A DNA stretch of 63,141 nucleotides, taken from contig CAIXXM010000054.1 in NCBI GenBank assembly GCA_903923395.1, positions 1 to 63,141 of the forward strand, written 5' to 3'. The notes under the pieces are model-generated. The model was given only the letters and a program-made list of their open reading frames with translations. It was not told where the DNA came from and made no database searches. The stretch is from an uncultured Acidobacteriia bacterium (GTDB lineage: Bacteria; Acidobacteriota; Terriglobia; Bryobacterales; Bryobacteraceae). The translations under genes and the position numbers were made by a program. Shown here one piece after another: positions 7,841 through 53,860 of the stretch (position 1 is the stretch's first letter; every line of letters starts with the position of its first letter).

Positions 7841-9151
7841 ATGTCATCGAAGCTCTGTCTGCTCGTGCTGCTCGGATGTAACGCCTTTGGCCAGATTCCG
7901 GATTCGCCAGACGCGGTCGTCGCCGGAATTCCCGTCAATTACACGGAGTCCAAAGCCGGCACCTACACACTGCCAGACGCGCTCAAACTCAACAACGGGC
8001 AACCGGTGCAGGATGCCCGGACCTGGGTGCAGAAGCGCCGCCCGGAGATCCGGCAACTGATCGAGCAAAACTGGTTTGGCCGCGCGCCGGGCCGCCCGAA
8101 AGACATGAGCTTTGAGGTCTTTGAGAAGGGCACGCCGGCCTTCCAAGGCAAGGCGATCCGCAGCCAGGTGACGATTTATTTTACGAAGGATCATACGGGT
8201 CCGCGGATGGATTTGCTGGTTTATTTGCCTGCCGATGCCAAGGGGCCCGTGCCGCTGTTCCTGAATATGAGTTTCTTCGCGAACAACCTCAGCGTGGCCG
8301 ATACGGGAGTGAAGATTGGCCGCAAGTGGGATAAGGCTTCGAAGACGCAGGTGCCCGCCGAACCGCCTCCCGCATCCGCGCCACCAGCGCCCGGTGCCAG
8401 AGGACTGCGGGTAGAGCAGTTCCTCACGCAGGGAATCGGCATCGCCACCTTCAACAAAGACGACCTTGCCCCGGACTTTGTGGAGAGCGAGGGTCTGGGC
8501 GTGAAGCAACTCTATCTCAAGCAGGGCCAAACCAAGCCTGCAGACGACGAATGGGGTGCCATCGCCGCTTGGGCTTGGGGTGCCAGCCGCGCCTTGGATT
8601 ACCTGGAAACCGATAAGCGGGTGGATGCGAAGCGGGTGGCGATCCATGGGGTGTCGCGTCTGGGCAAGACCGCGCTTTGGGCAGGAGCTGCCGATGACCG
8701 CTTTACGATGGTGATCGCCAGCTGTTCCGGTGAGGGCGGTGCCGCAATCGCCCGACGTAACTACGGCGAGACGCTGGCTCATATGGCCGCGCCGACACGG
8801 TATCCATACCAGTTCGCAGGCAACTATGCGAAGTTCGCGAATAAGATCAATGAGTGGCCGGTGGATGCGAACTTGCTTGTGGCGATGATCGCGCCGCGGC
8901 CGCTGCTGTTACAGACGGGCAATACCGATAAGTGGTCTGATCCGTACGGCGAGTTCTTAGCTGCCAATGCGGCCGAACCCGTGTACCGGCTTTTCGGCAA
9001 GCGCGGACTGGAAACCACGGAGTTTCCGAAAGCCGGTGAGCCGATCCTGCATGATGTCGGCTATCTTCTGCATGATGGAGGGCACGGCACCGTACCCTCC
9101 GACTTTGATGTGTATCTGCGCTTCATGGCCATGCACCTCAACAAGCCTTAG
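7841..9151 (+). CDS. CE15-type glucuronoyl esterase-like alpha/beta hydrolase
   Basis: 436 aa with a signal peptide ending near CNAFGQ. The catalytic signature GVSRLGK gives the nucleophile Ser272 and the adjacent conserved Arg of carbohydrate esterase family 15. SCSGEGGAA follows, and the catalytic His415 lies in HDGGHGT near the C-terminus. RPEIRQLIEQNWFGRAPGRP near the start is also typical. Family members cleave ester links between glucuronic acid on xylan and lignin alcohols, outside the cytoplasm. Together with the divergent DUF5060 glycosidase and the GH106 protein further on, this suggests an organism feeding on plant cell-wall material. The 3' end overlaps the convergent AAA ATPase gene by 14 bp. 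Confidence 0.85.
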   Translation: MSSKLCLLVLLGCNAFGQIPDSPDAVVAGIPVNYTESKAGTYTLPDALKLNNGQPVQDARTWVQKRRPEIRQLIEQNWFGRAPGRPKDMSFEVFEKGTPAFQGKAIRSQVTIYFTKDHTGPRMDLLVYLPADAKGPVPLFLNMSFFANNLSVADTGVKIGRKWDKASKTQVPAEPPPASAPPAPGARGLRVEQFLTQGIGIATFNKDDLAPDFVESEGLGVKQLYLKQGQTKPADDEWGAIAAWAWGASRALDYLETDKRVDAKRVAIHGVSRLGKTALWAGAADDRFTMVIASCSGEGGAAIARRNYGETLAHMAAPTRYPYQFAGNYAKFANKINEWPVDANLLVAMIAPRPLLLQTGNTDKWSDPYGEFLAANAAEPVYRLFGKRGLETTEFPKAGEPILHDVGYLLHDGGHGTVPSDFDVYLRFMAMHLNKP

Positions 9152-10670
9152 ACGCGAAGCCAAACGCCTCCTCCAGGGGACGTGAACTGCGCTTCTGGTG
9201 CTTGCGGCGATGATCCCGCGCGGTGGCGATTGCCTCGAGAAAGTAATCTTCCACTTTGCCGTCCAGTCTGCCGTTTGCGTGATCATAGGCGAACTGCAAC
9301 TTACCGTCTTCAATCACTGCCTTGAGGTCAGCGCCCGTGCAACCACGGCTGGCCGAAGATAGAAGATCAATGTCCACGCCGCAGAGCGGTGCGGGCAGAG
9401 ACTCCAGCCTCGTCTGGAAAATCCGTGCACGGGCGGCATCATCTGGCAGCCGGGTTTCGAGCCAGAGTTCCACACGGCCGGAGCGGAGAATTGCAGCCGG
9501 AAGATCCGCAGGTTCCATGGCAGTCATCATGACGCAGATGCGGCCGGTGCTGGCGCTCTCCAGCCCATCCATCTTGGTGAGCAGATAGCGGTACAGTCCC
9601 GCCTCCTTCTCACCACTGAAGATGACATCCGCATCATCAATAAAGACGATGGAGGGCGCATTCCGGGTGGCTGCATGGAAGACGCGGTCAATTTCGCGAT
9701 AGAAGTCCCCTGACCCCGCAATCATGCTGCCATCCACAAGAAAGAATTTCCCCTTGAGACGGTGGGCCAAAGCGCGCCCGATGGTGGTCTTGCCCGTACC
9801 GGGAGGTCCGGATAACAGGACACCCCGCTTGGGAACGAGATTTAGCGCGGCAGCCAGTTCGTGGTTCTCAAAAGGCAGGGCGATCTTCGCTTCCAGTTGC
9901 CGGATTACGTCTTCCACACCCTGCAAGTCATTCCAGGTGACGGCCTCTACTTCCTCAATCTTGACGTTACTGACCAGGTCGTGTTGACTCAGATAGCCCA
10001 GGAACAAAGGGGTATCGAGCGCAGGCTCATGGGCAAGCCACTGCGCCGCTTTACGCAACTGATGCGCATTCAGACTGGGGGCGAAGCGGTGGATCTCCTC
10101 GAAGTCGAGTTGAGCGGTAACTGCGGGGGCGAGACTGGCACCGCAGATGACAGCATAGTCAGTTGCGGTAAAGTCGCCGATCATCCAGCTATGGGCACGG
10201 CGGGCCAAAGGTCCGGGAATCTCTGCCGCCGCGAATAGCAACTTCTTGCCGAGTGAGGCTGCGTTGTCAAGAATTGCAGTGAGTGCTGCATCGAAGAGAT
10301 GCTGCCGTGTGTATTCATAGCTTTCAACGACCTGCTTCAGCAAGTGCAGGTCATCGACCAGCAAGTAAGTTTCTGTCTTGGCAATTTCCGTATCCAGCAG
10401 GTCGAGAAACGCCTCTTCGATCGCGAGGGGAGCATGAGAGGCCAGGGAAGAAAGAAACTCCCTGACACCAATCAGAGTGCCGCCAATTTGGGCCTGCACA
10501 AACCGCAGGACAGTGGACTTGCCATCACTTGCCATATCCTGCAGGACAACGCAATCCCCCCGCTGCAGGCCGAGAAGAACACCGTCCGCAGCTTTCTGCT
10601 GTGTCGGTGAAAGGACGATTTTGGACGCAGGTGCGCGTCCCGTTTGAGGAACCAATTCCAGGACTGGCAT
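9138..10670 (-). CDS. Tandem AAA ATPase, N-terminal module degenerate (CDC48/FtsH-like C-module)
   Basis: 510 aa, soluble. The first nucleotide-binding module (about 20-165) has a poor P-loop, DMASDGKST (45-53), and a Walker B LLVDDLH (103-109). The second (about 245-460) is a full AAA module: Walker A GPPGTGKT (288-295), Walker B VFIDDAD (342-348), an Arg-finger region ILRSGR (394-399) and a C-terminal helical lid with GCTGADL. There is no protease or membrane segment, so it is probably an unfoldase or remodeller. No partner gene is adjacent; the gene is monocistronic between convergent and divergent neighbours. A perfect inverted repeat lies just upstream of its start. Confidence 0.8.
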   Translation of the reverse strand: MPVLELVPQTGRAPASKIVLSPTQQKAADGVLLGLQRGDCVVLQDMASDGKSTVLRFVQAQIGGTLIGVREFLSSLASHAPLAIEEAFLDLLDTEIAKTETYLLVDDLHLLKQVVESYEYTRQHLFDAALTAILDNAASLGKKLLFAAAEIPGPLARRAHSWMIGDFTATDYAVICGASLAPAVTAQLDFEEIHRFAPSLNAHQLRKAAQWLAHEPALDTPLFLGYLSQHDLVSNVKIEEVEAVTWNDLQGVEDVIRQLEAKIALPFENHELAAALNLVPKRGVLLSGPPGTGKTTIGRALAHRLKGKFFLVDGSMIAGSGDFYREIDRVFHAATRNAPSIVFIDDADVIFSGEKEAGLYRYLLTKMDGLESASTGRICVMMTAMEPADLPAAILRSGRVELWLETRLPDDAARARIFQTRLESLPAPLCGVDIDLLSSASRGCTGADLKAVIEDGKLQFAYDHANGRLDGKVEDYFLEAIATARDHRRKHQKRSSRPLEEAFGFASKAC

Positions 10671-14984: not shown

Positions 14985-16097
14985 ATGGCAGCCTCCGTCT
15001 CACTTCCGCATTCGCAACCAGAGCCGCCCGCCGGATTGGTCTACAGCCGCGAAAGTTTCGCGGACGTCCCCTTGCCGGAGCATGCGGCGGCCTATCCGGA
15101 ATTCCGCTACATGGGGTCCAAACACAGGCTCCTGCCGTGGCTGCATGGTGTGCTTCGCGGCCTGCCGTTTGAAACTGCCGCCGACCCCTTCGCCGGCAGC
15201 GGCTGTGTTGCTTATCTGCTGAAAGCGATGGGCAAGCGCGTGGTGGCCTCGGATTTCCTGAATTTCCCGGCGGTGATCGCTGCGGGAACCATCGTAAATA
15301 ACCACCATCAGTTGGACGGGCCCGCGCTGAGCGCCCTGCTGAAGAAACGCCGCAAGGGTCCGAACTTCATTGAGAAGACCTTCGAAGGAATCTTTTTCAG
15401 CACCGGGGACCTCCGTTTCCTGGACCGCGTTACAGCCAATCTGGAACTTCTGCCACATCCGCACCAGCAGGATCTGGCCCGGGCCGCGCTGATCCGTTCC
15501 TGCCTGAAGAAGCAGCCCCGCGGTGTGTTCACCGTATCCGGGGATCTTTCCCGCTACGATGATGGCCGCCGCGACCTCCGCCTGACACTGGAAGAGCACT
15601 TTCTGGAGCAGAGTGCCGCCTTCAATCAAGTGATCTTCGACAATGGCCGTCAACATACGGCCAAGCGTGCGGATGTATTTTCACTGCGCCCGCGCGGCAT
15701 TGACCTGGTCTATCTCGACCCGCCCTATGTTCCACGCGCCGACGATAACTGTTACATGAAGCGCTATCACTTTCTTGAGGGACTTTCCTGTTACTGGAAA
15801 GGGCAAACGATCATGGAAGACACCAAGGTCAAGAAGATTGAGAAACCTTACACGCCCTTCAGTTACCGCCGCACCGCCGTGGATGCTTTCGATAAGTTAT
15901 TCCGCCTGTACCGCGAGAGTATCATCGTTCTCTCCTACAGCTCGAACGGTTTCCCTGACCGGGAAGAGCTGGAAGGCCTTCTGCGGCGCTACAAAACCAG
16001 CGTTACTGCCTATGAGCGCCCGCACCGCTACCACTTCGGAACGCACCAGGCTGTGGAGCGTGCAACGGTGAATGAGTATCTGATTGTGGGCCGCTGA
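14985..16097 (+). CDS. Adenine-specific DNA methyltransferase (D12/Dam class)
   Basis: 370 aa. It has the D12-class order of motifs: YMGSKHRLLPWL (42-53), the SAM-binding DPFAGSG (67-73), and the catalytic DPPY (245-248) followed by MKRYHFLEGL. This class transfers methyl groups to N6 of adenine. The stop is 2 bp from the start of a PD-(D/E)XK nuclease gene, making a type II restriction-modification pair in which this enzyme protects the host DNA. The nuclease resembles the DpnII group, which cuts GATC, so GATC is the most likely target; that is inference. Confidence 0.92.
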   Translation: MAASVSLPHSQPEPPAGLVYSRESFADVPLPEHAAAYPEFRYMGSKHRLLPWLHGVLRGLPFETAADPFAGSGCVAYLLKAMGKRVVASDFLNFPAVIAAGTIVNNHHQLDGPALSALLKKRRKGPNFIEKTFEGIFFSTGDLRFLDRVTANLELLPHPHQQDLARAALIRSCLKKQPRGVFTVSGDLSRYDDGRRDLRLTLEEHFLEQSAAFNQVIFDNGRQHTAKRADVFSLRPRGIDLVYLDPPYVPRADDNCYMKRYHFLEGLSCYWKGQTIMEDTKVKKIEKPYTPFSYRRTAVDAFDKLFRLYRESIIVLSYSSNGFPDREELEGLLRRYKTSVTAYERPHRYHFGTHQAVERATVNEYLIVGR

Positions 16098-21197: not shown

Positions 21198-23045
21198 TTA
21201 CACCACAACCCGCTCATCGCCCTCGCGCCGCGTGATATGCAGGCGGTCCAGATGCTCCAGCAAAGGGATGGCATACTTCCGCGAGATTCCCGTCCAGTCT
21301 TTGAAGACAGGGACAGTGAACCGCTCGCCGCGCCGCGTCTGGAGTTGTGTCTTCAACGCCGAGATAGAATCCGCATGCACCACCAGTTCTTCTGCGATCC
21401 GCACCAAGCGGTTTTCCTTCAATAACTGCTGTAACAGGATCTTCGCCTGCGCCGCCTCCAACCCCGAAGCCCCCAGAACTTCCGCAACACCCGGCACAAT
21501 CAGCCCCGCGTCACGGAACACCCGCTCCATCGCAGCGCGCGCCTGTTCCTCATCCTGCCGCAACACCACCTTATGACTTTTCAGCCGGACCACTTCGTGA
21601 TCCGCCGTAATCTCCGCTGTTCCCGCCAGAGCGAGTTCGAAAACCTCCGCCGCAGCCTTCGGCATGACCTTGCTCTTGAGATCCTGCTTCGCGATGCCCG
21701 CCAGCAGGGGATTCCCCTTGTGAAACTCGCGGCACGCCTGCGCCAGAAGCTTGCGGATTTCCAAGAGCCGCGCGGTACTGATCCACCATTCCCCGGCAGC
21801 TTCAAACAGCGGTGTTTGCGGCACACTCTTGAGGCCCGTCCAGGCAATCAGATCTGCCGCCCGCAGGCCCCAGAGATGTTCCCGCAAATGCTGCTCCACG
21901 CGCTCCACCGCGGACCCTTCCAGCAGAAGCTTGAGCCGTGCGGCGCGGTCATCCGCCAATCGGTAACGCCGTGCGCTGATATCCGCGATCAACCCGCCGC
22001 CAATCGTAATCACGGGGGAAAACATCCGGATGATGAAGCGGTCCCCCGGCAGCAATTGCACAGTGTCCTTCAGCACAATCCGAACCCAGGCGGAAGCACC
22101 CGGCTGCAGCGGTCCGCCTTTCTCCAGCAAGCGGACTTCCCCTTCCACCTCCGCCGTGCCCGCGTGGAAATGGACCGGCGCACGGTTCTTCAACGGTTTC
22201 GCGGACCGCAGCAATTCCAGGCGGCAATCGAGCACCGTGACCGGACGGAACCGTCCCGCCTCCGTCAGCACCATCCCCCGCCGGACCTCTTCCGGCGCGA
22301 TGTCAGGCACATTCAACGCGGTACGCAACCCCGCGGGGGCGCGCTCCTCGGCTTTACCGAAAACCTGCACGTTCCGGACCCGCAGCAACCGCCCCAGTGG
22401 ATGCAGTTCCACCTCCTGGCCTTTCCGGACCGACCCCGCAACCAGCGTTCCCGTCAACACCGTACCGAAGCCCTTCATCGTAAAAGCACGGTCCACCGGC
22501 AAACGGAACCAGCCTGAGGCGCTCTTCTCCTCAATCACCTTCGCCGACTTCCCGATCTCCGCCAGCAATTCCGGCAACCCGGCACCCGTCATCGCGCTCA
22601 CGGCCACTTTGGGCGCGCCTTCCAGAAATGAGCCCGCGACGAACTCATCGGTCTCGAGCGCCAGCAGTTCCAGGATGTCCGCGTCCGCCAGATCTGCCTT
22701 CGTGAAAACGATGATGCCAGCTTTGACTCCCAGCAGACGGCAGATATCGAAGTGCTCGCGCGTCTGCGGTTTGATGCCTTCTTCCGCCGAGATCACGAAC
22801 AGCACCAGATCAATGCCCGCCGCGCCCGCCAGCATGTTGCGGACGAAGCGCTCATGGCCCGGGACGTCAATAAACCCCAGCCGGATGTCCTTCGTCAGCT
22901 GCAAATGCGCGAAGCCGAGGTCAATGGTGATGCCCCGCCGCTTCTCTTCGGCCCAGCGGTCGGCATCCACCCCGGTCAGCGCTTTCACCAGCGCTGTTTT
23001 CCCGTGATCGATGTGGCCGGCCGTGCCGACGATAATATTCTTCAT
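21198..23045 (-). CDS. selB: Selenocysteine-specific translation elongation factor SelB
   Basis: 615 aa, the usual SelB length. The GTPase domain has G1 GHIDHGKT (10-17), an effector [11 protein letters not shown] segment, G3 DVPGH and G4 TKAD. EF-Tu-like domains II and III follow (about 175-335, with [12 protein letters not shown]), then the long winged-helix C-terminal region (about 375-615) that binds the SECIS hairpin in mRNA. SelB carries Sec-tRNA to in-frame UGA codons. The other sel genes are not in the window. Its presence supports the in-frame TGA read at 50451 in the peroxiredoxin gene. Its ATG overlaps, on the opposite strand, the probable start of the glycosyltransferase gene. Confidence 0.96.
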
Positions 23046-44726: not shown

Positions 44727-44791
44727 CAAGAAGAAATGACCGAATCGGACGCTTGCCTTTAGCCTTTTTTTAACGTGGTTGCAAAGTAGCC

Positions 44792-44810
44792 GGTCCGAAC
44801 GGTTCGGACC
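44792..44810. promoter_or_regulatory. Perfect 19-nt palindrome
   Basis: GGTCCGAAC-G-GTTCGGACC is a perfect inverted repeat with a single central base. It lies about 135 bp upstream of the DUF1592 gene and inside the putative minus-strand leader. A dimeric repressor or activator site is likely, and an RNA hairpin is possible. Confidence 0.45.
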
Positions 44811-44946
44811 TAAATCACTCCACGCATTTCCAGTATCCCGCCAAAGTGGCAGAAATGCAAACCGGCGGGTAACTGTAACGCTTACTGAGACGCCTTTTCG
44901 GTGGTATTCTAGGCTGATCAGTCCCTCTCGGACTGTCCACAAACTT

Positions 44947-47900
44947 ATGACGTTCCGGCGCTTCCCACTTCGATTTCTGCTCGTCACACTGCTCGGCCTC
45001 GGCGGCACTGTATGGACTGTCCGTACACTCAAAGCCTTCGCCACGCCGCCCGCCCCCGTCGTCAACCAGCAGACCTTCGATGAGAAGATCAAACCCTTCC
45101 TCAAACAGAACTGCATGAATTGCCACAACACGGAGACCGGCACCGCAGGCGTACGGGTTGACACCCTCACCCCCGCCTTCGAAGACCGCCACCTCGCTCT
45201 GTGGGAATCCATGGCACGCCGCATCAACAGCGGTTCCATGCCGCCGAAAGGCCTGCCGCAACCCAGCGTGGAAGACCGCAAGTTTGTCGCCGATTGGATC
45301 AACCTCGGCATCGAAGCCGCCAAACAGCGCCCCACCCCGAAGAACGGTGTCGTCCGCCGTCTCACCGTGACGCAGTACCGCAACACCCTCAAGGAACTCC
45401 TCCAGCTCGAAGACGATCTCACGGACCGCCTGCCGCCCGATGCCATCTCCAAGGACGGCTTCGTCAACAATACCGAAACCCTGCAACTCTCCCCGCTGCT
45501 CGTCGAATCCTACTTCGAGATCGCCGAAGAAGCCCTGAAGCGCGCCATTGTCGACCCCAAAGTGCCCCCCACCATCCAGGATTTCCGCATGGATTTCGGC
45601 ACCTCCGTCAACCCCCGCCCGCTCAAAGAAAAGCTCATCCTCGGTGCCGGCAGCGCCCTGCTGGAGAACAAAGATTTCGTCGTCTCCCAGCCCATTCCCG
45701 TCAAGCCTTTCGCCTTCAACCCCTTCCACATGCGCACCAAGTGGCGCTTCATTGAGGGCTACCAGGGCAATGACACCGTGCGCGGCTGGCGCGAATACGA
45801 CAGCATTTATCACAACGTTTTCGCCGATATGCGCGGCAGCGGCGGCTACCCCAAGGGGCGCGCCTACAGCCTCGTCCAGGAAGGCCTGCTGCTCCGCCCC
45901 GCCATCCCCAACGATGAGATCTTTGGCGCGGACGGCACCTACGGACCCAAAGCGAACTTCAAGATCTCCCTCCGCGAACTCCCGGACTCCGGCCGCTTCC
46001 GCGTGACCGTGATGGCCGCGAAATACAACGACGGCCTGCTTCTCGACTCCGGCATCAAGCCCCTCAACACGCCCGAAACCATCACGGTCTCCGGTGTACA
46101 GGCGAAGCAGACAGTCACCATTCCCAAAGCTGGCATCTACCAGGTCGACGTCACCTCCGCCGCCAAAGTCTCCGCCCCGCCAGAGCCCGATTCCACACAC
46201 CTCACCGAAGGCCTCATCACCGGACTCCTCCCCGCCAGCGGCCTGCCCGCCACCGCCAAGCTGCAGGGCAAAGCGAAACTCGTTGACTCTCCCTTCGGCA
46301 AAGCCGTCTCCATCACCGCGGATGGCGACGCCGCCGCTTTCCCACACACCGACTCCATGAATACCGGTGACGGCGACTTCACCATCACCGCCTGGGTGAA
46401 GCCTAACGCCCTCCGGAAGGGTGGAATCCTCAGCCTCGGCCCGCGCAACGGCCCCAGTTGGTATCTCGAAACCTCTGATAACAAAGGCGCTCTCCGCTTC
46501 CAGACCACCAGCGCCGCCAACGACTCCAATGGCAGCGTCGCCTCCCCCGGCGGCACCCTGAAAGCCAAGACCTGGCAACAGATCTCCATCGTCGTCCGCC
46601 GCAAGCGCGCCGAAGCACTCCTCTACGTCAACGCCTACCCCGTCGGGCGCGGCGAACTCGAAGGTGCCAGCCTCGACAACCCCAAGGCCGACTTCCTCAT
46701 CGGACGCGTTGCCGATTCCGACACCTTCCGAGGTGATATCGCCGATGTGCGCTTCTACAAGCGCGCCCTCGAACGCCCGGAAATCGCCGCCCTCGTCTTC
46801 CCCGGCAAGGAGTTCGTCACCGCACCGCCCGGAGAAAAGCCGCAGGACATCACCCTCACCCTCGGTGGCAGACAGTTTGTCAGCACCCTGAAGCAACCCG
46901 CCTTCCTCGCCGTGCGCCTGGAAGCTGGCCCGCTCGAATTGGAAGAACGCCACACCGGCGTCACCGCCATCGAGAAGATCAGCTTCACACCTCTGCCGGC
47001 AACTTCAGACATCACGCCTAAATTCCTCGCGTTTGAAAAGCGCGCGCCGAAACTCGGCGTCCACCTCGGCTTCCGCCGCGATTGCGGCAGCACCTTCGCT
47101 CCCGTCGGCGGACCCGTCGTCGTCTCAGATACCAAGTTCAACAAGTTCGTCTTCGAAGGCGCGATGCGAAATTACCCGAACCCCGACGTCGAAAAAGACA
47201 ACGTCAACTACCTGGCTGGCATGCGCGAAATCGCTGTACGGAGCGAGTATACAGATGGGCGCGACATGCCCAGACTGATGATCCACTCCGTCGAATTCGA
47301 AGGTCCGTTCTATGACCAGTGGCCCCCCGCCACCCACAAGAACATCTTTATCGACTCCCCGAAGAAGAGCGACCCCAACGCCTACGCCCAGCAAATTCTT
47401 CACAACTTTGAGACCAAGGCCTACCGCCGCCCGGTCACTCCGGCCGAAGACGCTGCGATCTTTGCGGTCTACAAGAAATCCACCGCCGCCGGCCGCAGCT
47501 TCCAGGATTCCATCAAAGACGCCCTGCAGGTGGTTCTGACCTCGCCCCAGTTCCTCCTCATCACGGAGAAGAGCAAGACCCCGGAGCCAGAACCGCTCGA
47601 CAGCTACGAACTCGCCAGCAAACTGGCCTACTTCCTCTGGAACGGTCCGCCGGACCGCAAGACCCTGCAACTGGCCGCCAATGGCACCCTGCGCAAGCAA
47701 CTCGACGCCGAAGTTACCCGCATGATCGCGGATGATCGCTTCACCCGCTTCACCAAAGAGTTCGCCACGCAGTGGCTGGCGCTCGATAAATTCGCCGTTC
47801 TGGAACCCGACCGCAAGAAATTCCCCGCGCTCAGCCGGGATACCCGTTCGCAGTTGAAGCTCGAACCCATCCAGACTGTGCAATACCTCATCCGCAACAA

Positions 47901-48579
47901 CATGCCGGTGAAGAACCTGGTTTCCTCGGACTTCATCGTCGCCAATGAAACCGTTGCCAACTACTATGACCTCGGTTCGAAGACAGAAAGCGGCTTCGAG
48001 TTCGTCGCCATTCCTCACGGTCGCAAAGAACTCGGCGGCGTGCTCACCGAAGCCGCCATCATGGCCGGACTCTCTGACGGACGCGAATCGAACCCCGTGA
48101 AGCGCGGTGCATGGCTCGCCCGGAAGATCATCTCTGAACCGCCAAATGATCCGCCACCGAACGTGCCCACCGTCAAGGAAGATCCGAACCTCACCCTGCG
48201 CCAGCGTCTGGAACAGCACCGCAACCAGAACGGTTGCAAACAGTGCCACGCCAAGATCGACCCCTGGGGTGTTGCGATGGAAGAGTTCGACGCTGGCGGA
48301 CGCCTCAAGTCCGTCCACGCCGACGCCAGTTCCACCCTGCCCGACAACACCAAGGTGGAAGGCGCCAATGACCTGAAGCGCTACCTTGCGGAGGACCGGA
48401 TCGACCAGGTGGCCTACAGCGTTCTCAAGAACCTGGAGACCTATGCCAACGGCCGCACCCTGTCGGTTTACGAGCTGACGAACCTGAAGAAGGACACGCT
48501 CAAACTCAAAGCGGACGGCTACCGGATGAAAGATATGGTCCGGTATGTCGTGAACAGCAGCCTGTTTTTAGAGAAATAG
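44947..48579 (+). CDS. DUF1587/DUF1592/DUF1588/DUF1585 protein with cytochrome c-like motif and LamG insert
   Basis: 1210 aa from ATG 44947. After an N-terminal helix ([13 protein letters not shown]), QNCMNCHN gives a heme c motif (CxxCH, 56-60). DUF1587 follows ([16 protein letters not shown]), then a LamG/concanavalin-like domain (about 425-615: [17 protein letters not shown] and [13 protein letters not shown]). DUF1592, DUF1588 ([14 protein letters not shown], a second CxxCH at 1097-1101) and DUF1585 ([11 protein letters not shown]) complete it. This set is typical of Planctomycetes and Acidobacteria; a role in secreted oxidation of polymers has been suggested but not proven. The DUF1552 partner is 20 bp downstream. 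Confidence 0.9.
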
Positions 48580-48599
48580 TTAGAATAAGAGACAACGCC

Positions 48600-49946
48600 A
48601 TGAACACCTCCTCCTTACGCCTCGACCGCCGGGCCTTCCTGAAAGGCATCGGAGGAGCAGCCCTCGCGCTGCCAGTGCTCGACGCCATGGGCGCCGAAGT
48701 CGCGGAGCAGACGCCGAAGCGCTTCTGCGCCATCTACACCGCCAACGGCATGTCCCTGCCCAAGGCCGAGCATGGTCTGGATGAGTGGTCGTGGTTCCCG
48801 CGCCAGGAGAAGGATGGCCGGTTTGTGTTCGGCAAATCCACCGAACCCCTCGCGCCGTTCCGCAGCAAGCTCAGCTTCATGAGCAATCTCTACCACCCCA
48901 GTGGCCCGAAGTCTGACCCGCACACCTGCTCGGATATGTGGCTGACCGGCGCGCCGCTCTATAACCCGAAGCCCGGCACGTACAACACCGCCGGTCTCGA
49001 TCAGGTCATCGCCTCCCACACCAAGCAGTATTGCCGCCAGCCCTCTTTGATTTTGTCGATCGATGCAGGCACCGGCTATCTCTCCCGCACCGGCACCATT
49101 TCCTACAGCCTGGACGGCCGGCCGATCCCCGCGGAGAACAATCCCCGCCGCGTCTTCGACCGTCTCTTCCGCGCCGACCGCGGTTCCATCCAATCCGAAC
49201 GCGAAAAGCTGCAACGGCGCATCAAACTGGTGGACGCCGTCGCCGCCAATGCGAAATCCCTCGACCAACAGCTCGGCAAGTCTGACCGTGAGCGCATGGA
49301 TCAGTATCTGACCTCGCTCAACGAAGTGGAATCCCGGCTCATCGCTTCCGAGAAGTGGATCGACATCCCGCTCAAAAAGCAGGACTATTCGCACCTGAAT
49401 CTGGATGCGAGCCCAGAAGGCGAACCTGCGGAATACTACCGCAATATGTTCGACCTGATGGCGCTGGCCTTCGATGCCGACATCACCCGCTCGGCGACCT
49501 TCATGTTGAACCGCGAGGACGGCATGGGCATCAGCGATACCTTCCCGTTGAAGCTGGGCCTGGCCAAGACGCACCACAACCTGTCACACGCGACGGATAA
49601 GGAAGGCCAGTTGCACTTCGCGCAGTATGATCTCTTCCTGAGCAAGCAGATCGCCCACTTCCTGGAACGTATGGAGGGCTACAAGGACCGCAACGGTTCG
49701 GTGCTCGACAACACCATCGTGATGTTCGGCAGCGGCGCCAGTACGACGCACAACAGCCACAACATCCCGACCCTGATCGCCGGCGGTGCCAATATGGGCC
49801 TGAAGCACGGTCAGTTCTGGAAGGGCAAGGAAGAAACCCGGATGTCGAACGTCCACCTGAGCATTCTCCACTCGATGGGGATTGGTGAGGAAGCGTTCTC
49901 AGACAGCACGGGAACGCTGAGCGGGTCTATCTTCAGCAAGGTTTAG
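48600..49946 (+). CDS. DUF1552 protein, Tat-exported
   Basis: 448 aa. [22 protein letters not shown] is a twin-arginine signal. The body matches the DUF1552 family, with [39 protein letters not shown] and [26 protein letters not shown]. This family is usually the direct partner of DUF1592 proteins and shares a distant relation with sulfatase/phosphatase-like DUF1501 proteins. The function is unknown. A strong GC hairpin begins at its stop codon. Confidence 0.9.
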
Positions 49947-49972: not shown

Positions 49973-50183
49973 CGCCCACCGTTCGCACGTGCTACTCCCC
50001 ACCGCCGCTTGAACCACATTCCGTTTCAATTCATCACGTCTCGTCGGTCGCCCACTGTTCGCACGTCATTCTGACGTGCGTACCCAGCCTACGCCCAACC
50101 GCCGCTTCAACCACTTCTGGTTCAATTCAGCACGCCCGTCTGCAAGATGGGCGAACAAGGCACGTCTCTTCGGTCGCCCACCG
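49973..50183. repeat. Degenerate direct repeats with internal hairpins
   Basis: CGCCCAC(C/T)GTTCGCACGT occurs at 49973-49990 and 50049-50066, with a shorter CGCCCACCG at 50175. ACCGCCGCTT(G/C)AACCAC occurs at 50001 and 50098, and CACGTCTC(G/T)TCGGTCGCCCAC at 50035 and 50161. Two hairpins lie inside: CGCACGTCA-TTC-TGACGTGCG (50060-50080) and GCCCGTCT-GCA-AGATGGGC (50134-50152). The spacing is irregular, so it is not a CRISPR array; it may be a REP-like element. It fills the gap before the peroxiredoxin gene. Confidence 0.6.
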
Positions 50184-50240
50184 ACCTTCTTTCGCCCCCC
50201 GGCAATGTTAGCCTGTGAAGACAAGGAGATGCTCACACCA

Positions 50241-50786
50241 ATGAGACTTTCACATCTTGCCTTCCTGGCCGCAGTCGCCTGCACCAGCCTGTTTGCACAA
50301 CAGGCCCCGCAGTTGACGCCGCTTAAGGTTGGCGATACAGCGCCCGACTTCACCCTCGGGTCCACAGACGGAAAGAAAGTGACACTCTCTGAGTTCAAGG
50401 GTAAGAAGGGCGTCGTCCTCGCCTTCTTCCCCGCCGCCTTCACCGGTGGCTGAACGAAAGAGATGCAAAGCTACCAGTTGGGTAGCACGAAATTCAATAA
50501 CGACACCATGGTGATGTTCGGCGTCAGCACGGACAACACTCCCTCCCAGAAAGAATTCGCCACCAAACTTGGACTCACCTTCAGCCTGCTCAGTGACTTC
50601 AGCACCAGAAGCACAGCCAAGGCCTACGGCGTTCTGCGTCCAGACGGCATGTGTAACCGCGTGACGTTCGTGATCGATGAAGATATGAAGATCACTTATG
50701 TCGAAATCGGGAACTCAGCCGTTGATGCTTCCGGCGCGGAAACCGCCTGCAGCCGTTTGGACCACAAGAAAGCCACTGCCAAGTAA
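50241..50786 (+). CDS. Selenoprotein peroxiredoxin (AhpC/TSA-Prx type, TGA read as selenocysteine)
   Basis: 181 aa if TGA at 50451-50453 is read as Sec71. Before it: signal peptide (LAFLAAVACTSLFAQ), then VGDTAPDFTLGSTDG and FFPAAFTGG. After it, in the same frame: TKEMQSYQ, VFGVSTD-like MFGVSTDNTPSQKEF and FVIDEDMKI. The family signature P-x3-T-x2-C is complete except that the peroxidatic Cys is the TGA. Further Cys at 138 and 170 could resolve the selenenic acid. A SECIS-like hairpin follows (50470-50486), and SelB is encoded at 21198. It would reduce peroxides, probably in the periplasm. ATG 50241 is chosen for the signal peptide; GGAG is 12 nt upstream. Ordinary annotation would split this gene into two pieces. 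Confidence 0.9.
50470..50486 (+). promoter_or_regulatory. Bacterial SECIS element in the peroxiredoxin mRNA
   Basis: GCTACC-AGTTG-GGTAGC forms a 6-bp stem with a 5-nt loop that has G in its second position. The loop begins 22 nt after the TGA. Bacterial SECIS hairpins lie in the coding region just after the UGA and typically carry a G among the first loop bases; both fit. SelB binding is inferred. Confidence 0.75.
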
Positions 50787-51650: not shown

Positions 51651-52922
51651 TCACGCAATGTCTCCAAGCACATCATCAATCAAACTTTGGTCGCTTCTTC
51701 CCGTATGCTTTGAGTTGCTTCGTTCGCTGTCCCGATAATCGGTATGCCACTCCGCGGTTTCCAGTTCGACCGCTTCCCCGGGGTGAAGCCGGCGTAAGTC
51801 CCACTCTGTGATCCACCGGCGAATATAAGCGCGCAGCGGAGTACTTTGTTCGCGCCGCAGAGGTGTGGTGACCGCAGGCTCCCAGTCATAAGCGGTCTTG
51901 TAGAGACCCCGTATCCGGGCAAAAGTATCATCCAGTGCGGCGAGATCCGGACGCTTCAGCGTATATCCATTCCCGGCAAGAATTCGCATGCCGGCTTCCG
52001 CCAGAACATCCTCTCCTGTACCCGCGTATGCCGCCCGCGACTTCATCAACTTCGGTATCCTGGTCCAGTCGTCCTTTTCTTCCAGCACAGCGCGTGTGTA
52101 ATCGCCAGTGATGGCCAGCACGGGCAGCACCGGTAACCCCGGCTCCGCCTTCGAGTTCATCAGCCGGGCTATCTCCACATATGACTTTCCTCTTTGGAGG
52201 GCGGAGTAAGTACCCAGTAACTCCACTTCATCCACCAGAAGTACCCAGCCCGCGTAACCTGCAGCCCTGATCAAACGGCCTGCAAACTGAAATCTCTGCG
52301 CGGCAAGCTCCCGTTGACTTGTGTATCCCGCGACATAGGGAACGCCAGCCTGACGCATTCTGGATTTCAGTGCCGTGGCTGCGATCTTCCCGCCAGCCCA
52401 AAACCGAATGATCTGGTCACGAAATTCGTGGTCGGCCTGGAAATGCTCGAACAGGAACAATGACGCAGCAAAGCGCGGATCCATTCCATTGGAAGCTTGA
52501 TTGGTCCAGCGTTCAAACTCCCGATATGCTGCGGATTGGAAGACAAGCTGGTTGGCAATTTCATTGAATGCCGGACCAGCTCTCTTGGGCAAAGTGATAC
52601 TCTCGACCGCGCCTTGATACATCTTGACTGGGTCATGCAGCGGTGTCTCTTTGTTGACATATACTCTGCTGACCGCGAAGTTGCGCTCCAGAGCAAGCTC
52701 TGCAAGATAGCCCAGAGTATGTGATTTGCCAGTGCCAAAATCACCCTTGATTAGAAATCCATTGTAAGTCTGGCTGCGGATAACAGCGTCCAGCCGGTCT
52801 CCAAACACTTGTTCCACCTTGGGTTGGTCACAGCCAAGAACCCTGACGCTGTAAGAGTTTGGGACACCGGCGCGCAGTGCCTCCACGGAACTTCTGGCAG
52901 AAAACTTTGTTTCGTCCCGCAT
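51651..52922 (-). CDS. BrxD-like (DUF2791) P-loop ATPase
   Basis: 423 aa from ATG 52922, which shares one base with the preceding TGA (TGATG). Walker A GDFGTGKS (60-67) and Walker B VLLVDEVELLG (227-237) are intact. ARSSVEALRAGVPN near the start and the length agree with the BREX-system ATP-binding family (DUF2791). In BREX, BrxD-like ATPases take part in phage defence, but no other BREX gene (pglZ, pglX, brxC, brxL) is here. It is the third gene of a coupled cassette whose second product is a degenerate relative. Confidence 0.8.
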   Translation of the reverse strand: MRDETKFSARSSVEALRAGVPNSYSVRVLGCDQPKVEQVFGDRLDAVIRSQTYNGFLIKGDFGTGKSHTLGYLAELALERNFAVSRVYVNKETPLHDPVKMYQGAVESITLPKRAGPAFNEIANQLVFQSAAYREFERWTNQASNGMDPRFAASLFLFEHFQADHEFRDQIIRFWAGGKIAATALKSRMRQAGVPYVAGYTSQRELAAQRFQFAGRLIRAAGYAGWVLLVDEVELLGTYSALQRGKSYVEIARLMNSKAEPGLPVLPVLAITGDYTRAVLEEKDDWTRIPKLMKSRAAYAGTGEDVLAEAGMRILAGNGYTLKRPDLAALDDTFARIRGLYKTAYDWEPAVTTPLRREQSTPLRAYIRRWITEWDLRRLHPGEAVELETAEWHTDYRDSERSNSKHTGRSDQSLIDDVLGDIA

Positions 52923-53860
52923 CAGCAAATCCCCTCTGTCAGGCGGACCAGCGGCGCAAGCAGATTCTGCAATCCCGCCGGACGGACATCATCGAAAATC
53001 CTCATTTTCAGAGCCTGATACCTGTCTACCCCGCGCTTCTCGTCAGACAAGAACTCAGGCGTGGTAAACACCGTAATAAAGGTACCCCGCAGTTCTGATG
53101 AGCCATCAATCAACTGCCTGAGCAGTTCATAGACTTCAGTAAGAGAACCGGTTGTGTAATAGAAACCGTCTTTGCGCTCAAGCTTCCGCGGATTCTCAAA
53201 ACATCGCGAGATATCCAGCGTGATCAACAGACCCTGCCGCCCATTTCTGTGAAGCCAGTAAGTCAGAGATTCGAAGGCAAGCCGGGCATTGTGACGGTTG
53301 ATTTTCTGGAAGATCTTGGCTGCCTTGAGTTCGGAAATCCGGGGCAATTCTCCGCGGAGCCACTGCTGCACAGGCACGGCAGAGTGCTCCAGACCCTTGA
53401 TTTGAGCCCGGCATAGTTGCAGCAGGGCCAAACGGAAATCCTGGCCCATATGGAAGTCGTCATAGAGCCCTTGCAGCCAACTCCGCAGCACAACCCGCAC
53501 TTCGGGCACCTCAACGCCATTCTCCCAGGCAATATCAGCAAGGTCGAATCCCTGGGAAACTGGTTGTTGTACCTTCCACCCGGCGGCACGAAAGCCTTCC
53601 GCGACGAATGACGCAGCCAAGCCGTCCCAATCAATCTGGCGCGCGATCTCAAAGAAGATATGATCGATCCGGTGCATCCGCGTCTGCGCGGCATGCAGAT
53701 CCACGCGGATATATTCGTGCCGTTCCGCCAGTAAGTCCACTTTGGCGGAAGCTTCAGCGAGTAACTCCAACCCGCCGACAAGAAACTTCACGGCCCCGCC
53801 ACCCGCGGGGATGTAATCTGTCAGGTATTCCCGGTCGATGATGTCAATCCATGTTTCCAT
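52922..53860 (-). CDS. DUF2791-like ATPase relative with degenerate P-loop
   Basis: 312 aa, start ATG 53860 coupled to the upstream stop (TGATG). EYLTDYIPAGGGAVKFLVGG sits where DUF2791 proteins have the P-loop, but the GKS/T is missing. LLITLDISR (211-219) matches the Walker B strand, and HRIDHIFFEIARQIDW resembles the region after the P-loop in the active relatives. It probably binds the active ATPase next door as a non-hydrolysing partner. The remote relation is inferred from layout and motif spacing. Confidence 0.6.
   Translation of the reverse strand: METWIDIIDREYLTDYIPAGGGAVKFLVGGLELLAEASAKVDLLAERHEYIRVDLHAAQTRMHRIDHIFFEIARQIDWDGLAASFVAEGFRAAGWKVQQPVSQGFDLADIAWENGVEVPEVRVVLRSWLQGLYDDFHMGQDFRLALLQLCRAQIKGLEHSAVPVQQWLRGELPRISELKAAKIFQKINRHNARLAFESLTYWLHRNGRQGLLITLDISRCFENPRKLERKDGFYYTTGSLTEVYELLRQLIDGSSELRGTFITVFTTPEFLSDEKRGVDRYQALKMRIFDDVRPAGLQNLLAPLVRLTEGIC

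Follow-up and report, generated by a model that had tools for sequence, protein, structure and literature searches.

Peroxiredoxins (Prx) in which selenocysteine (Sec) replaces the peroxidatic cysteine are a described selenoprotein family (PF00578, TxxU type), characterized in the excerpted text of a review and a survey by a Prx domain, Sec in the motif P-x3-T-x2-U, a downstream SECIS element and Cys-containing homologs (PMC13188914, PMC1794560), all of which are shared by the gene described here. The first Sec-peroxiredoxin is dated to 2001 in the excerpt of a review (PMC13188914), and excerpts of later studies count 43 such genes in a Sargasso Sea set (PMC1088965), 253 in the GOS data (PMC2398784) and, in 2016, 91 proteins from 78 organisms (PMC5029168). 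For Acidobacteria, the excerpted 2006 survey gives three selenoprotein families with four selenoproteins, and for the Prx family as a whole it reports five Cys-to-Sec events and no Sec-to-Cys event (PMC1794560); a more recent paper, likewise excerpted, lists three known selenoprotein genes in one acidobacterium (PMC12013277).

Two individual enzymes offer further points of comparison. PrxU of Eubacterium (Peptoclostridium) acidaminophilum (reference 83 in PMC13188914) likewise has Sec for the peroxidatic Cys, and AhpE of Mycobacterium tuberculosis (Rv2238c), a 1-Cys peroxiredoxin, is the closest solved relative of the protein analysed here. The present gene lies at 50241–50786 (+) of a 63,141-nt window, the whole stretch of DNA that was analysed, which is contig C54 of an acidobacterial genome of 6.15 Mb (169 contigs, 98.5% complete). 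From comparison of sequences, we estimate a probability of roughly 0.93 that it encodes an AhpC/TSA peroxiredoxin with Sec as the peroxidatic residue.

Sequence and domain content of the interrupted frame

Translation of 50241–50786 (+) with TGA read as U yielded 181 residues ending at a TAA stop, with a sole U at residue 71 in the context FFPAAFTGG-U-TKEM. The TGA (50451–50453, +) occupies the peroxidatic position of P-x3-T-x2-U (P64-A-A-F-T68-G-G-U71), and the presence of P64, T68 and U71, together with a downstream R140 common to the relative L057, places the protein in the TxxU type of PF00578. With Cys set at position 71, the product matched PF00578 (AhpC-TSA) at 119.1 bits (gathering score 26), and the Pfam alignment ran over profile positions 1–123 of 124 in one stretch across the TGA. 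A possible ribosome-binding site, AAGGAG (50223–50228, +), can be read directly from the sequence 12 bases before the ATG. The first-pass annotation, made from the DNA letters and a list of open reading frames, had described a single TGA in an otherwise open frame, its location on the catalytic position of P-x3-T-x2-C, family motifs in phase downstream, and two truncated genes as the expected output of automatic annotation. The translation and the uninterrupted domain match bear out this description, the mechanical ORF list indeed breaks the frame into 50076–50453 and 50463–50786, and the codons aligned with the TGA, presented below, agree with its catalytic position in 163/163 rows.

Upstream of the peroxiredoxin gene, the region 44779–49946 (+) comprises a cytochrome-type gene with DUF1592/DUF1588/DUF1587 and, after it, a DUF1552 (HXXSHH) gene. 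In the interval that separates the latter from the peroxiredoxin gene, stretches resembling 'cgccgctt(c/g)aaccac' were seen by eye to be repeated at 50000–50180.

The peroxidatic codon in homologous genes

Homologous genes were collected in two sets. Of the 399 genomes searched in the class, 300 contained a match at E 1e-20; this figure is not an orthologue count, since such a cut-off also lets in PrxQ-like paralogues. The first set comprised 121 loci (L018–L138; 29 from the class search, 80 from the class match table, 2 others and 10 from the own genome), from which a filter at E <= 1e-25 removed 10, namely the nine own-genome paralogues L019–L027 and L058; as two loci carry two copies, 113 rows resulted, the window gene among them. 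The second set consisted of 50 rows new to the codon reading, 11 from the order, 2 from the same class and 37 from outside the class.

At the peroxidatic column, the 163 rows held TGA in 147 cases, TGC in 15 and TGT in one. All Cys codons came from the first set (TGA 97, TGC 15, TGT 1), and TGA occupied the column in 50/50 rows of the second, including the 37 from outside the class. The in-frame TGA is therefore aligned with the catalytic Cys of homologs. Ten TGA genomes of the order had first been classed by the count of in-frame TGA alone, and the codon reading confirmed 10/10. It also disposed of the idea that Sec might be encoded at other stop codons, because TAA or TAG inside rows proved to be terminal stops, with 0/163 cases remaining. 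In two Cys genes (L039 and L073), the single counted TGA is the terminal stop.

The division of the frame by mechanical ORF finding is what one would expect if the TGA were an ordinary stop in a pseudogene, a split gene or a sequence with an error. We regard this possibility as negligible, as the column holds TGA in 147 of 163 rows and Cys codons only in the remainder, and as the region past the TGA is constrained: over 60 residues, 35–42 identities were found against each of six relatives, with dN of 0.30–0.43 and dS above 1 or saturated. An assembly error at the TGA in particular is very unlikely, because the identical TGA occurs in many separate genomes. The earlier argument that a random or pseudogene stop would not hit the catalytic codon is thus upheld by a column restricted to TGA (147) and Cys codons (16). 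Reading of the TGA as another amino acid, for example as Trp or through a near-cognate suppressor, is scarcely more credible. Homologs without the TGA have only Cys codons at this position, a SECIS element and the full set of SelA, SelB, SelD and tRNA-Sec are present, and TGA is not simply reassigned, because it still serves as the terminal stop in 8 of the 97 TGA genes of the first set (TAG in 63, TAA in 26).

The hairpin downstream of the UGA

Bacterial SECIS (bSECIS) elements are described, in the excerpted text of a review, by a loop of 3–9 nt with G in its first two positions, a stem of 4–16 bp, a distance of 16–37 nt from the UGA and an MFE of at most -7.5 (PMC13188914). The window sequence contains at 50470–50486 (+) the hairpin GCUACC-AGUUG-GGUAGC, with a 6-bp stem and a 5-base loop starting 22 bases after the UGA, which conforms to all four published constraints (loop AGUUG, 6 bp, 22 nt, -9.5 kcal/mol). 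The folding energy is a modest signal when taken alone (z -1.9; 9/200 shuffles as good). Across the first set, the bSECIS model was satisfied by 92/96 distinct Sec rows and by 6/16 Cys rows, mostly at other spacings in the latter, while each of six synonymous-codon resamples, used as a control, gave 15–20/96 rows.

The four core pairs of the stem, 21/33, 22/32, 23/31 and 24/30 in columns numbered from the TGA, formed in 84, 95, 95 and 95 of 95 distinct Sec rows, respectively, compared with 4, 7, 11 and 6 of 16 Cys rows; the outer pairs were less constant (40–84/95 distinct Sec rows). From the Sec set, RNAalifold derived a consensus with four pairs (-2.0 kcal/mol), and from the Cys set one without pairs. 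The stem also covaries, in that a Tyr codon and the Gly/Asp codon located three codons further change together, the third base of the former with the second base of the latter. Among the 95 Sec rows, the states were TAC-GGT in 61, TAT-GAT in 24, TTC/ATC-GGA in 8, TAT-GGT in 2 and TAC-GAT in none, and the TTC/ATC-GGA state represents a compensated A-U to U-A change. Fisher's test gave p 2e-19 with relatedness ignored. On the tree, the pair state changed at least nine times, and the sign test on independent pairs (2 with starred branches, 5 with all) was not significant, so that the covariation alone loses significance after correction for relatedness because the independent pairs are too few. 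In the second set (n=50), the states were TAC-GGT in 17, TAT-GAT in 22, TTC-GGA in 5 and others in 6, and all four core pairs formed in 42/50 rows, three in 3/50 and two or fewer in 5/50. The proposal of a SECIS-like hairpin after the TGA is therefore sustained by the published constraints, the stem covariation and the synonymous-codon controls, with the hairpin mostly decayed in Cys genes, and the stem covariation further argues against an ordinary stop.

Five TGA orthologues (L156, L183, L186, L187 and L188) have only 0–2 of the four core pairs in the usual register and perhaps use a different SECIS in another register. Conversely, one Cys orthologue with TGC (L073, genome G222) retains all four core pairs, and its hairpin is likely a fossil SECIS that followed a recent Sec-to-Cys change.

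Selenocysteine machinery of the genome

The absence of selA, selC and selD, named in the first-pass annotation as evidence that would overturn its reading, was not observed. Profile searches found SelA at 507.6 bits (cut-off 267.9) and SelD at 364.5 bits (cut-off 125), and a tRNA-Sec with anticodon TCA scored 76.6 bits against 47. The SelB gene that had been noticed in the window was confirmed as a Sec-specific elongation factor of 615 aa at 21198–23045 (-), matching TIGR00475 at 344 bits with a cut-off of 242. SelA, SelB, SelD and tRNA-Sec thus occur together in the source genome.

The SelD gene itself (C67:81735-82769, +; L014:1474-2508) has an in-frame TGA (AAG-U-ASKLSP) followed by a hairpin of -12.4 kcal/mol that satisfies the bSECIS model. 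A second candidate selenoprotein of the same genome (C42:66786-67820, -; L023:853-1887) is an exported-looking Prx-like protein of the UxxC type (ADW-U-PFC), with a bSECIS-conforming hairpin past its TGA (loop GGUCG, -10.4 kcal/mol).

Elsewhere in the window, two adjoining ORFs at 51651–53860 (-) match different parts of BrxC/BrxD-type ATPases, an AAA ATPase with weak likeness to IetA is encoded at 9138–10670 (-), and a type II DNA methyltransferase at 14985–16097 (+) scored 310 bits in PADLOC. The latter two genes perhaps belong to a defence or modification region.

Relationship to known peroxiredoxins

NCBIfam NF040737, which we take to represent PrxU of E. acidaminophilum, gave 48.7 bits for the window protein and 70.5 for the relative L057, and the former score against a cut-off of 270 rules out membership in this subfamily. 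The thiol peroxidase Prx-SUH (NF045827) was likewise rejected, at 50.7 bits against a curated 298. AhpE was matched by phmmer with E of 1.3e-24 to 2.4e-23 over residues 26–156 or 28–156, and both proteins share FFPxAFTGx(U/C); however, AhpE has Cys and a single-Cys mechanism, whereas the window protein has Sec, starts with a likely signal peptide and bears a second Cys on a C-terminal tail. The PrxQ/BCP-like own-genome paralogues L019–L021 belong to the same superfamily (38–43% identity over the aligned part) but, unlike the window protein, have TxGCT-type Cys active sites and no Cys near the C-terminus. Compared with the TxxU family at large, the present clade is distinguished by being probably exported and AhpE-like and by an invariant C-terminal Cys.

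Probable export, the C-terminal cysteine and a proposed mechanism

The hydrophobic N-terminus MRLSHLAFLAAVACTSLFA, encoded at 50241–50297 (+), is a likely signal peptide with a possible cut before QQ. A 12-residue stretch above hydropathy 1.6 was found in 106/111 N-termini, scored by hydropathy only with starts set by a simple rule and 2 of the 113 rows left out as having no start, and the extracytoplasmic location suggested by the first-pass annotation is accordingly probable.

Near the other end of the protein, Cys170 (50748–50750, +) is conserved in 163/163 rows; a Cys lies 92–108 residues after the Sec/Cys column in 113/113 rows of the first set and 50/50 of the second. The 115 residues past the active site contain one Cys in 109 of the 113 first-set rows and two in the other 4. 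The first-pass annotation was right in its assignment of Sec71 as the peroxidatic residue, yet it made no mention of this invariant Cys, which probably takes part in the mechanism.

Based on these features, we propose that UGA codon 71 would be recoded by tRNA-Sec, SelB and the SECIS hairpin within the coding sequence just downstream, with SelA and SelD providing the Sec-tRNA, and that the protein would be exported to the periplasm or cell envelope. Pro64, Thr68 and Arg140 presumably hold the Sec71 selenolate in the Prx pocket, by their roles in the Prx family. The selenolate would attack H2O2, an organic hydroperoxide or peroxynitrite to give a selenenic acid, Cys170 on the C-terminal tail would then form a selenenylsulfide with Sec71, and an exported thioredoxin-like protein may reduce it. 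On balance, we favor a role of Cys170 in resolving oxidised Sec71.

In a different and less probable, though still quite possible, arrangement, the protein would work in the manner of AhpE, as a 1-Cys-type peroxidase, but with Sec: Sec71 would act alone and be reduced directly by a small thiol or redoxin, with Cys170 serving a structural or other role. AhpE is the closest solved relative both by sequence and by a weak model: an AlphaFold2 prediction from only two sequences (pLDDT 59.9, pTM 0.54) retrieved AhpE in Foldseek, with a TM-score (query) of 0.44 and an rmsd of 12.6–13.1 A, so that these hits contribute little; the prediction was of too low a quality for a reading of the Sec71–Cys170 distance. 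The enzyme is described as a single-cysteine one in the excerpted text of PMC4965862. Moreover, no neighboring gene points to a dedicated reductase, as no family occurred in more than four loci among the flanks of L018 and L028–L057 (about 1.5 kb on each side where the sequence extended so far, 3 kb for L057). Against this arrangement, an AhpE-like 1-Cys enzyme would lack a second Cys, whereas the Cys170 equivalent is present in all 163 rows, in Sec and Cys forms alike, and in the first set has almost no other Cys beside it over the 115 residues that follow the active site. In addition, a search of PDB sequences with the C-terminal 41 residues retrieved no peroxiredoxin, even with E relaxed to 10, which is weak evidence given the short query.

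Distribution and evolutionary history

In a sample of the order (115 genomes), the TGA form was present in 80/98 genomes with SelA versus 2/17 without (Fisher p 4e-8, relatedness not corrected). The 18 SelA-positive genomes without the TGA form comprised 13 without an orthologue at E 1e-30 and 5 with the Cys form only, and the 17 SelA-negative genomes comprised 12 without an orthologue, 3 with the Cys form and 2 with the TGA form. These last two, G373 and G391, are draft assemblies (660 and 390 contigs, respectively) in which SelA did not exceed the cut-off. The SelA-negative group takes in G063, G387 and G391, which have sub-cut-off matches only, while G317 (E 2.2e-64) was placed among the positives. 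In a phylum sample, 39/297 genomes matched at 1e-30. Of these, 36 lie outside the class, and each of their 37 rows carries both the TGA at the column and the C-terminal Cys. Among viral contigs, 30 stretches matched a pattern and 0 were relatives. Among plasmids, 365 records matched at less than 60% identity throughout; the best 15 of them bear redoxin, peroxiredoxin or bcp names in nine cases and ResA in one, with the rest lacking annotation.

A quick ML tree was built from the 113 rows and three own-genome paralogues; its root is unsure because the outgroup branches are long. It requires at least eight Sec/Cys changes among the 113, of which well-supported branches force four. Of the 16 Cys rows, nine fall in one clade and the remaining seven lie dispersed between Sec rows. 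The fossil hairpin and the nesting of Cys rows among Sec rows favor a history in which a single old Sec state reverted to Cys several times; the count of changes does not by itself prove the direction. Six genomes (G207, G240, G246, G249, G353 and G383) have both Sec and Cys forms, and in G353 (L051) the two stand in tandem.

Discussion

The reading of 50241–50786 as a peroxiredoxin with Sec in place of Cys stands, but since the kind is already described as TxxU peroxiredoxin selenoproteins, the find is less surprising than the first-pass annotation rated it. The present clade may well be among the acidobacterial entries already counted for the TxxU family (PMC13188914, PMC1794560). In searches of open-licence papers, we found no account of a clade of exported, AhpE-like peroxiredoxins with Sec in Acidobacteriota, of its breadth or of its C-terminal Cys. 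We tentatively put forward, at slightly under even odds, that the Acidobacteriota share an ancient subfamily of exported AhpE-like selenoperoxidases with a C-terminal resolving Cys (a Sec-Cys selenenylsulfide), which would be one of the main reasons why these bacteria retain the Sec machinery and which would have undergone repeated Sec-to-Cys reversions, leaving at least one fossil SECIS hairpin.

Reading of the raw sequence thus led to a genuine recoded gene, one that is cut in two by simple ORF calling. Several Sec-to-Cys events appear to have taken place in the clade, opposite to the 2006 survey, although this direction is inferred rather than proved. Its natural Sec/Cys pairs, including the tandem pair and the Cys form whose hairpin is intact, would be useful for comparing Sec with Cys in the same enzyme. 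Because the column carries TGA in 110 class rows and in 37/37 rows from outside the class, the data suggest that a selenium-dependent peroxide defence, probably acting outside the cytoplasm, is common in the phylum.
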